From: Ignavibacteria bacterium
Lineage (GTDB): Bacteria > Bacteroidota > Ignavibacteria > Kapaibacteriales > UBA2268
Length of the DNA stretch: 64,000 nt
Direction: 5' to 3'
Assembly: GCA_026417135.1 (NCBI GenBank)
Contig: JAOADV010000001.1
Span: 1 to 64,000 of the forward strand
Shown: positions 20,503 through 23,633 of the stretch, in pieces
Layout of the letters: each line of letters starts with the position of its first letter
Position numbering within the stretch: the stretch's first letter is position 1
The notes under the pieces: model-generated
Told to the model about the DNA's origin: nothing
Seen by the model: only the letters and a program-made list of their open reading frames with translations
Database searches by the model: none
Position numbers and translations under genes: made by a program

Positions 20503-21075
20503 ATGCCAATGGGAACAACTTCGGACCTAAGACCAGGGGCTGTTATTAATTTTAATGGTGAGTTGCATCTTGTTCTTGAATCTGAGCACCGTACTCCGGG
20601 CAACTTAAGAGCCTTTTACCAAGTAAAAATGCGTAATATGAAAACTGGGCGGTTGAGCGAATATCGTTTCCGTTCTGGGGAAACGATTGAATTTGTTTAT
20701 GTTGAAAGAAAAGATTACCAATACCTTTATCGAGATGGCGATAATCTATACTTTATGGATACAGACACATACGAGCAGATTCCAATTGAGCTTCAACTTG
20801 TCGGTGATGCATTGGATTTCCTCATTGAAAACCAAGAAGTGCAAATTGCATTTGTTAATGGTCAACCGATAGGAGTTGAACTACCTGCTCACGTTAATCT
20901 ACGAGTTGTCCATACAGAACCCGGTGTCAGAGGAGATACTGCCACTAATGTTATGAAACCAGCTGTCTTAGAAAGTGGAGCAACGATTCAAGTTCCACTT
21001 TTCATCAACGAAGGGGACCTCATACGCGTCGATACTCGCACTCACGAATATGTTGAACGTGTCAAAGAAAATTAA
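20503..21075 (+). CDS. efp: Translation elongation factor P, atypical loop (N34)
   Basis: EF-P binds between the P and E sites of stalled ribosomes and speeds peptide bonds at polyproline stretches. The 190-residue length and three-domain sequence are typical: N-terminal KOW-like SDLRPGAVINFNGE, central domain with YLYRDGDNLYFMD, and the C-terminal OB-fold signature (VVHTEPGVRGDTATNVMKPA, VPLFINEGD, VDTRTHEYVERV). The tip loop of domain I reads EHRTPGNLRAF. Aligned one-to-one with E. coli EFVKPGKGQAF, Asn34 replaces the lysine that is beta-lysylated in E. coli or otherwise modified elsewhere, and there is no Arg of the rhamnosylated type at that position. It heads the efp-accB-CADD-accC run, an arrangement also seen in other bacteria for efp-accB-accC. 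Confidence 0.95.
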   Translation: MPMGTTSDLRPGAVINFNGELHLVLESEHRTPGNLRAFYQVKMRNMKTGRLSEYRFRSGETIEFVYVERKDYQYLYRDGDNLYFMDTDTYEQIPIELQLVGDALDFLIENQEVQIAFVNGQPIGVELPAHVNLRVVHTEPGVRGDTATNVMKPAVLESGATIQVPLFINEGDLIRVDTRTHEYVERVKEN

Positions 21076-21090
21076 TTTTTAGGCCATAAA

Positions 21091-21576
21091 ATGGACTTAA
21101 ATTATTTAAGAAAAATTTTGAAAATTTTCGACCAAAGCTCTCTAACAGACTTAACCATCGAAGAAGAAAATGTCAAGATTTCACTTTCACGTAAACCACC
21201 TCCATCTATGGACTCGATTTCTTTGGTCAAAAACCTTCATCCAGAAACCATTCCAACTTTAAAGATTGAACCTTCTCCAGAAAATAAAGAGAAATTACCC
21301 GAACCCGAAGAGCAAAAACCTTCGATAGCCACTACCTACCACAAAATTAATTCACCAATTGTTGGTACTTTCTATCGTGCTCCGTCGCCCGGTGCCGACC
21401 CATTTGTCGAAGTAGGAACTCACGTTGTTCCGGGGCAAACTCTTTGTATTGTCGAGGCAATGAAAGTTATGAATGAAATTGAAAGCGACGTCTCTGGAAC
21501 AATTGTCGAAATCTTGGTTGAAAATGGGAAACCGGTAGAATACAACCAAACTCTTATGTTAGTCAAACCAGATTAG
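21091..21576 (+). CDS. accB: Biotin carboxyl carrier protein of acetyl-CoA carboxylase
   Basis: Carries the biotin that shuttles CO2 between biotin carboxylase and carboxyltransferase in malonyl-CoA formation. It is 161 residues long. The N-terminal helix region ([20 protein letters not shown]) is the AccB type. A proline/glutamate-rich linker runs from about 50 to 85. The biotinyl domain covers about 86-161 with [19 protein letters not shown] and the biotin acceptor Lys125 in [10 protein letters not shown] (Val in place of the more common Met after the lysine). It starts 15 nt after efp. accC lies downstream, but an unrelated diiron-type gene is inserted between them. Confidence 0.95.
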
Positions 21577-21598
21577 ATGTTTAAACTTATGAGGAAAA

Positions 21599-22237
21599 AT
21601 GGAAAAACTATCAGAGAAAATAGACAAAATTGTCTTGCAGAAAAGCCTTCTCAAACACCCTTTTTACCAGAAATGGAATGAAGGAATTCTTACTTTCGAA
21701 GCTCTTCGCGGATATTCAAAAGAGTATTTTACTTTTGTAAAATCTGTTCCACAACTTCTTTTGAAAATAAAAAGTTATTCTTCCGAAAGTTCCAATAACG
21801 GAATTGAACAAAATATTTCCGATGAAATAGAACATATATCTCTTTGGAAAGATTTTGCTTTTTCCTTGGGGGTGAAAGAAACTGAGCTTGAATCTTATCC
21901 AGGCTTACCCAAAACACAATTAGCCTTGAAAAAGCTCGATGAATTAATAACATCTTTAGAAACTGGCTCTGCATTAATGTATGCTGTCGAAAAAGAAATT
22001 CCAACCATAAGTCTAAGTAAAATTGATGGCTTAATTAAGTTTTACGATTTTAAACCAGATAAATCTATTCAATACTTTATCCGACACCTCGATGACGATG
22101 TGCGCCATTGCGAAACTTGGAAAACAATTCTAAATAAAATAAATGAAGAAAGACATCATAGCTTAAAGTTGGTAGCAAACGAAGCTCTCGATTCAATGAA
22201 CCTATTGCTTGACGCTTGTTTAGAGGAATATTGTTAG
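21599..22237 (+). CDS. CADD/TenA-PqqC-fold diiron protein, candidate self-sacrificing pABA synthase
   Basis: The 212 residues read as a heme-oxygenase-like all-helical protein and align well, from memory, with Chlamydia CADD (CT610), which makes 4-aminobenzoate by sacrificing its own Tyr27 with help from Lys152. The equivalents are present: Tyr23 in HPFYQKW, and Lys141 in EKEIPTISLSK. So are the metal ligands Glu131, His163, Asp167 and His170 (HLDDDVRH). The first-helix-pair ligands appear as E76/E78 with His79 (DEIEHISLW), three residues shorter than in CADD. The start is the ATG at 21599 with GAGG 5 nt upstream. It sits between accB and accC with 22- and 52-nt gaps, so it is probably co-transcribed. 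Alternatives are a thiaminase-like TenA or another N-oxygenase of the fold; the Tyr and Lys argue against TenA. Confidence 0.75.
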   Translation: MEKLSEKIDKIVLQKSLLKHPFYQKWNEGILTFEALRGYSKEYFTFVKSVPQLLLKIKSYSSESSNNGIEQNISDEIEHISLWKDFAFSLGVKETELESYPGLPKTQLALKKLDELITSLETGSALMYAVEKEIPTISLSKIDGLIKFYDFKPDKSIQYFIRHLDDDVRHCETWKTILNKINEERHHSLKLVANEALDSMNLLLDACLEEYC

Positions 22238-22289: not shown

Positions 22290-23633
22290 ATGTTTAATAA
22301 GATTTTAATTGCCAATCGAGGAGAGATTGCATTAAGAATAATTCGAGCTTGCAAAGAACTCGGTATTAAAACAGTTGTTGTTTATTCGGAAGCTGATATT
22401 TATTCTTTGCCTGTTAAATTTGCAGACGAAGCTGTGTGTATTGGCCCACCACCATCATCTAAAAGTTATCTTTATATACCCGCTATCATATCTGCCGCCC
22501 AAATAACTAATGTAGATGCTATTCATCCCGGTTACGGCTTTCTTGCAGAAAATGCAACATTTGCAGAAATTTGCGAAGCTTCTGGTTTTGTCTTTATTGG
22601 ACCAAAACCAGATTCAATATCAAGAATGGGAAACAAATCTGTTGCGAAGGAAACAATGCAAAAGGCTGGTGTTCCAGTAATACCGGGAAGTCCGGGTGTC
22701 GTTCATTCCTTAGACGAAGCTGTTTCAGTTGCTGATTCAATAGGATATCCTATCATTATCAAGGCTTCGGCTGGGGGTGGGGGTCGCGGTATGCGTGTAG
22801 TTAACAACCGTGAAGAGCTAATTCGCTCCTTTGGAGTAGCTAAAGCCGAAGCTGGTAGTTTTTTTGGTAGTTCAGATGTTTACATAGAAAAGCTTCTTGG
22901 GAAATCGAGACACATTGAGTTTCAAGTTTTTGGGGACAAATATGGAAACGTTGTCCACTTAAACGAACGAGAATGTTCATTACAACGCCGCCATCAAAAA
23001 CTAATCGAAGAAGCTCCGTCGCCAATTATGACTTCAGAGTTAAGAGCAAAAATGGGCGAATCTGCAATAAAAGGTGCAAAGGCAGTGAATTATTTAGGGG
23101 CTGGAACTATAGAATTTCTTGTTGACGAAAACTTTAATTATTACTTTATGGAAATGAACACACGTATCCAAGTTGAACATCCCGTTACAGAAGAGTCTTT
23201 GTGTGTCGATTTGGTCAAAGAACAAATCCGAGTCGCTGCTGGAGAACCCCTGTCTGTCCAAGTGCAAGAACCAAAGTTTTGGTCAATTGAATGTAGAATA
23301 ATAGCGGAAGACCCATATAATGATTTTCGCCCCTCGCCCGGTAAAATTACCAGCCTTCATCTTCCAGGTGGATTTGGTGTCCGTGTCGATACACATATTT
23401 TTCAAGAATATCAAGTTCCACCATACTACGACTCTTTACTTGCAAAACTTATTACTTGGGGAATGAGCCGTGAAATTGCTATTTCGAAAATGAAACGTGC
23501 ATTGGAGGAATTTGTAATCGAAGGTATAGCGACAACTATACCTTTTCATTTAAAAATGATGGATAATATAGATTTTCGAGCTGGTAATTTCGATACAAAA
23601 TACCTCGAAAGGGTCGACTGGCGAAGTATTTGA
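22290..23633 (+). CDS. accC: Acetyl-CoA carboxylase biotin carboxylase subunit
   Basis: ATP-grasp enzyme that carboxylates the biotin on AccB. The 447-residue length is normal. Signatures in order: N-terminal [32 protein letters not shown], the glycine-rich ATP lid [11 protein letters not shown] (about 159-169), [25 protein letters not shown] with catalytic residues, and [14 protein letters not shown], all as in AccC. It is the last gene of the efp-accB-CADD-accC unit. The accA/accD carboxyltransferase genes are not in the window. A short AT-rich hairpin lies between it and the convergent PLP enzyme gene. Confidence 0.95.

Follow-up and report, generated by a model that had tools for sequence, protein, structure and literature searches.

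We propose that the open reading frame between accB and accC in a 64,000-nucleotide stretch of an Ignavibacteria bacterium contig (this whole stretch is called the window below) encodes a compact, O2-dependent, single-turnover synthase of 4-aminobenzoate (pABA), of the kind of Chlamydia CADD and Nitrosomonas NePabS, and that the gene was acquired from an ammonia-oxidizing archaeon, a reading to which we assign a probability of about 0.7. The reading is based here on family-level homology, the fold, residue conservation, the absence of PabA and PabB, the presence of FolP and the descent near the archaeal forms, while we infer all the chemical steps from CADD and NePabS.

Family, fold and residues of the window protein

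The open reading frame runs uninterrupted from the ATG to the stop codon (Table 1). The best NCBIfam model is TIGR04305 (CADD family, putative folate metabolism), which matches the protein over its full length with E 3.7e-44 and 150.9 bits, the next models being far behind (PqqC, E 2.7e-4 and 20.4 bits versus a cutoff of 240; BesC, E 2.9e-4). As the curated TIGR04305 cutoff is 200 bits, we leave the protein out of the membership of TIGR04305; an archaeal relative scores 158. We file it as a protein that works like a self-sacrificing pABA synthase, with the activity being predicted. In the PDB sequence search, strong full-length matches were obtained only to NePabS (NE1434 of Nitrosomonas europaea; 9pj4, E 4.7e-29) and to CADD (CT610 of Chlamydia trachomatis; 1rcw, E 1.6e-28, and 8va9, E 2.9e-28), the best one being NePabS.

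Table 1. Features of the efp-accB-accC region and predicted functional codons of the inserted gene
Feature	Position	Strand	Basis
efp, conserved start of the efp-accB-accC block	20503..21075	+	
accB (biotin carboxyl carrier protein), flank 5' of the insertion	21091..21576	+	PF00364
Compact CADD-type (TIGR04305-like) putative self-sacrificing pABA synthase, 212 aa	21599..22237	+	profile and PDB sequence matches; model pLDDT 97.2
Tyr23 codon, predicted sacrificial Tyr (CADD Tyr27, NePabS Tyr25)	21665..21667	+	alignment; invariant in 24 archaeal relatives
Glu76-x2-His79, compact helix-3 metal motif (E-x6-H in CADD/NePabS)	21824..21835	+	alignment; continuous model helix 63-89
Glu131 codon, predicted metal ligand	21989..21991	+	alignment
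Lys141 codon, predicted sacrificial amine donor (CADD Lys152, NePabS Lys159)	22019..22021	+	alignment; invariant in A1
His163-x3-Asp167-x2-His170, predicted metal ligands of the later helix	22085..22108	+	alignment
accC (biotin carboxylase), flank 3' of the insertion	22290..23633	+	PF00289/PF02786/PF02785

The AlphaFold2 model, which was built with 24 natural relatives (mean pLDDT 97.2, pTM 0.92), predicts the seven-helix heme-oxygenase-like fold, a broad fold that is common to PqqC and TenA. The model compares with CADD 1rcw at TM 0.92 and Z 29.3, PqqC comes next at Z 27.1 and all others have Z of 22.8 or lower. PqqC, a cofactor-free PQQ synthase, has the same fold and is 18% identical to the window protein. 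Thus, the protein is a CADD-type heme-oxygenase-like dimetal protein, though no close CADD. The proposal of a sequence-only reading of this DNA that the protein is CADD-like stands as far as the type is concerned, by TIGR04305, the fold and the residues, and has to be narrowed as far as closeness is concerned, with the score below the cutoff and the nearest relatives being the archaeal compact forms.

The same reading had listed Tyr23, Lys141, Glu131, His163, Asp167 and His170 as kept, which is borne out by the alignment with NePabS 9pj4 and CADD 1rcw and 8va9. In the alignment, all six members of the predicted set of three His and three carboxylates (Glu76, His79, Glu131, His163, Asp167 and His170) are present and conserved, the first pair being spaced as E-x2-H and not as E-x6-H; the ligands of CADD we take to be Glu81, His88, Glu142, His174, Asp178 and His181. 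In NePabS, Tyr25 and Lys159 are consumed and, like Tyr41, are essential, and Tyr45 and Trp99 strongly affect the activity (Stone et al., PMC11965152). The counterparts of Tyr25, Tyr41, Tyr45, Trp99 and Lys159 in the window protein, as aligned, are Tyr23, Tyr39, Tyr43, Trp83 and Lys141, all of which are kept, and the five are also retained together across the archaeal relatives. Moreover, 43 of the 48 columns that are invariant in the 24 archaeal relatives are kept in the window protein, among them all the predicted ligands and sacrificial residues. The metal choice in NePabS is set by Phe148 and Phe177, and the replacement Phe177Tyr switched the enzyme to Mn/Fe (PMC11965152). Val130 and Tyr159 occupy these two positions in the window protein, and since the tyrosine had that effect in NePabS, some Mn preference is predicted.

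CADD shares with the window protein the fold, the sacrificial Tyr and Lys and the spacing of the later ligands, and the position of its Tyr170 is also a tyrosine (Tyr159) in the window protein. By contrast, the identity is only about 30%, E-x6-H in CADD stands against E-x2-H, CADD Tyr141 is replaced by Val130, and CADD comes from an intracellular pathogen while the window gene does not and is located in efp-accB-accC. NePabS differs by the E-x6-H helix 3 with an extra loop, and by Phe177 at the position of Tyr159.

The compact helix 3, the archaeal relatives and the locus

A deletion around the first metal helix had been singled out in the sequence-only reading as a difference to explain. The deletion is real, but relative to CADD and NePabS it amounts to four residues and not to three; in the relatives labelled Ignavibacteria the spacer between Glu and His is longer still than E-x6-H. 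In the predicted structure of a canonical relative (L070), helix 71-85 ends near Glu84 and is followed by a loop and by a new helix from His91, whereas in the model of the window protein a single unbroken helix, residues 63-89, spans Glu76 and His79. Thus, as judged from the two models, what sets the compact form apart is that no loop separates its first Glu and His ligands, whether it was lost or never present. The E-x2-H spacing is common to all of the aligned archaeal relatives, to those from Peribacteria/Peregrinibacteria and to the short forms of about 185 aa in the host's own family. With compact archaeal proteins as the nearest relatives the deletion is explained, and on the alignment it is a shared trait and not damage. 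We know of no solved structure and no assayed member with the compact site. In several assayed members of the superfamily, helix 3 is reported to be flexible and the cofactor labile (PMC13108848), by contrast with the continuous helix-3 dimetal site modelled for the compact form, and by this comparison the continuity of the helix could be relevant to metal binding.

It is noted that other variants of the family occur. The proteins of about 185 aa (L020 and L022-L030, in the host's family f1 and in family f4) have HPFY, the Lys and E-x2-H, with H-x2-E-x2-H replacing H-x3-D-x2-H; a PF00425 gene is found in none of the f1 genomes that carry them, and they are possibly a further compact form of pABA synthase. 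In Peribacteria/Peregrinibacteria (L049, L050, L052-L054, L059 and L066), the CADD-like proteins are compact, keep the Tyr and Lys and have shorter versions of both ligand helices; most of the carriers have genomes of about 1.1-1.4 Mb and no PF00425 gene. A protein of the canonical type (L005, in G055) has a ligand Glu changed to Lys and an insertion in the last ligand motif, and is possibly a degenerate or repurposed copy.

The best matches in named genomes come from Cenarchaeum, Nitrosopumilus, Nitrosarchaeum and Nitrososphaeraceae, with 38-45% identity. We sampled 81 genomes of the order to which the Nitrosarchaeum genome belongs, and found a strong CADD-like match, with identity up to 52%, in 33 of them. 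All 30 AmoA-positive genomes in this sample carry the compact gene, the remaining three of the 33 are without AmoA, and the other 48 genomes gave two weak matches or none. Note that since the association between AmoA and the CADD-like gene reflects shared descent, these numbers indicate universality in the clade and do not constitute an independent functional test. The compact archaeal proteins (e.g., L094-L113 and L043-L048; 38-52% identity) are, like the window protein, about 210 aa long, and have the same E-x2-H, H-x3-D-x2-H and sacrificial residues. In the literature searched we found no biochemically characterised archaeal compact member.

In the host's phylum (395 genomes), the window protein is the only compact full-length form, the other matches being canonical or short. 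In the trees it falls inside the archaeal set, with supports of 100/94 and 100/99, and this nesting points to capture of the gene from such an archaeon. Its branch is long (1.2-1.4), so that some change of function is possible, and in the AU test the topology with the archaea held together without the target and Peribacteria gave a borderline p of 0.056. In view of the long branch and this p value, we regard the gene's transfer from an ammonia-oxidizing archaeon as likely rather than proven. The base composition was uninformative as a sign of transfer (G+C of 33% in the gene, 39-41% in its neighbours and 35% in the window). An 8-bp repeat ATGTTTAA (21577-21584 and 22290-22297) was discarded as an insertion footprint, since chance alone yields many repeats of 8-9 bp in this stretch.

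That the gene is inserted between accB and accC is confirmed by the domains of the two flanks (Table 1). The gaps are 22 bp from accB and 52 bp to accC, with efp lying upstream of accB. In all four other genomes of the genus the efp-accB-accC block is present without the insert, with about 10 bp between accB and accC in three genomes and 236 bp in one; the 236-bp spacer (L033, 2839-3074) contains no ORF of at least 100 aa. With the window protein as the query, no match was found in these four genomes, that is, the gene is present in one of the five genomes of the genus, and the insertion is private to the window's genome. The archaeal relatives that were examined are solitary genes with nuo, polyprenyl synthase or radA-type genes nearby, by contrast with the window gene in its efp-accB-accC block. 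An insert that is private to one genome and that has archaeal relatives beside unrelated genes gives no support to a functional tie to acetyl-CoA carboxylase, such as the earlier idea that the step is tied to the fatty-acid carboxylase operon. The gene is probably linked to fatty-acid synthesis by its position alone, and what it gains from lying in the acc operon is probably no more than expression.

The need for pABA in the host and in ammonia-oxidizing archaea

No PF00425 gene (PabB/TrpE/MenF) was found in the window's genome or in its four congeners, while the control genomes were positive in 14 of 14 cases. For PabA/TrpG (TIGR00566), the only matches in the window's genome stayed below the cutoff and lay in ORFs as long as GMP and CTP synthases (519-561 aa). 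FolP is present with 311.7 bits. As far as covered by the searches for PabB, PabA and FolP, this is the pattern expected for a replacement of PabABC, with no PF00425, no TIGR00566 over the cutoff and FolP present. The earlier suggestion that pABA is made here without PabABC is upheld by the lack of PabA and PabB and the presence of FolP, but it was worded too broadly for "this lineage", as all four other genomes of the genus are without the gene. The four congeners lack both PabB and the CADD-like gene, and FolP is over the cutoff in three of them. Therefore, members of the genus must be able to scavenge pABA, which weakens the argument from need; uptake of pABA or another source may be sufficient. 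It is also noted that in one genome of the genus (G004) no dihydropteroate synthase reaches the TIGR01496 cutoff, while its four congeners each have one that does, and that with no PF00425 gene in any of the five genus genomes (G000-G004), TrpE is absent like PabB. Within the host's family, a tendency of CADD-like genes and PF00425 to exclude each other (0 of 8 versus 10 of 28, Fisher p 0.076) was too weak to be used.

In the ammonia-oxidizing archaea, each of the 30 AmoA-positive genomes has at most one PF00425 gene and none has a second. In a complete archaeal genome (G516), the sole PF00425 gene lies within the trp operon and DHPS is over the cutoff with 210.6 bits. MptG (TIGR00144) was considered as the consumer of pABA, and as none was found over the cutoff in the AmoA-positive genomes, the archaeal demand for pABA is argued from DHPS in this one complete genome. 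Several deep non-AmoA members of the archaeal order have MptG, but carry at most one PF00425 gene and lack a CADD-like gene. No relevant paper on pABA in ammonia-oxidizing archaea was found in the literature searched. Extending the reading from the single bacterial gene, we consider it somewhat probable that the compact CADD form is the pABA synthase of the ammonia-oxidizing archaea as a group, O2-dependent, suicidal, folate-supplying and with a continuous helix-3 site, the window gene being a bacterial capture of it.

The proposed pathway and other explanations

By analogy with CADD and NePabS, the pathway would be as follows. After acquisition from an ammonia-oxidizing archaeon and insertion between accB and accC, the gene would give a protein whose reduced dimetal site (Glu76, His79, Glu131, His163, Asp167 and His170) activates O2. 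The oxidizing equivalent would then move via the aromatic residues Trp83, Tyr43, Tyr39 and Tyr159 to Tyr23, the Calpha-Cbeta bond of which would be cut, so that its side chain becomes the pABA ring. The ring fragment of Tyr23 would be oxidized to the carboxylate, with Lys141 giving the amine. The protein would be spent after the one turnover, and the pABA would go to FolP.

A different possibility, which we consider unlikely, is that the protein is a dimetal oxidase of the same superfamily whose substrate is a separate small molecule, as for UndA, BesC and HrmI; it would then have no more than its ancestry in common with CADD, and Tyr23 and Lys141 would be structural. This would be consistent with the compact helix 3, which is unlike that of every assayed CADD-type enzyme, with the score below the TIGR04305 cutoff and with the variation of the second ligand helix in the Peribacteria and short forms as well. 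However, UndA and HrmI are structurally remote (Z about 22 versus 29), as is BesC (Z 21.1), which is also remote in sequence (E 2.9e-4 versus 3.7e-44), and Tyr23, Tyr39, Tyr43, Lys141 and Trp83 are retained jointly across the archaeal relatives. Moreover, the homologue that is without Tyr and Lys occurs where PF00425 genes exist: in this canonical-like protein (L021, in G057) the Tyr is changed to Phe (HPFF) and the Lys also to Phe, and the genome has two PF00425 genes, a contrast that is suggestive only, because two PF00425 genes also occur in some genomes whose canonical gene is intact.

Still less probable is that the gene, recently transferred, is decaying or without a role, with pABA or folate obtained from neighbours, as presumably in the four congeners. 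While its presence in only one of the five genus genomes, the lack of PabB in the other members too and the long branch would agree with this, the frame is intact, the 43 of 48 archaeal-invariant positions and every predicted functional residue are kept, and a long branch together with retained active-site residues fits purifying selection and not drift. That the protein is of the TenA or PqqC type (a thiamin pyrimidine hydrolase or a PQQ synthase), as its Pfam match to PF03070 (TENA_THI-4/PQQC) might suggest, is very improbable, since that match is at the clan level only, the PqqC model gives no more than E 2.7e-4, no TenA or PqqC match reaches the equivalog level, and the six-ligand set of CADD and the sacrificial Tyr and Lys are kept.

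Finally, we return to the compact pABA synthase and what it would imply. If the proposal is true, archaea that rank among the most abundant aerobic ones, together with one or more bacteria that acquired their gene, would produce a universal vitamin precursor at the cost of one protein molecule for each pABA, with O2 as an obligatory reagent. A gene would also be assigned to a step that has no candidate in the archaeal genomes, where TrpE is the only chorismate-binding enzyme found. In addition, mechanistic studies would gain a dimetal site that is possibly stiffer, in a superfamily with a reportedly flexible helix 3 and labile cofactor and with NePabS turning over poorly in vitro.
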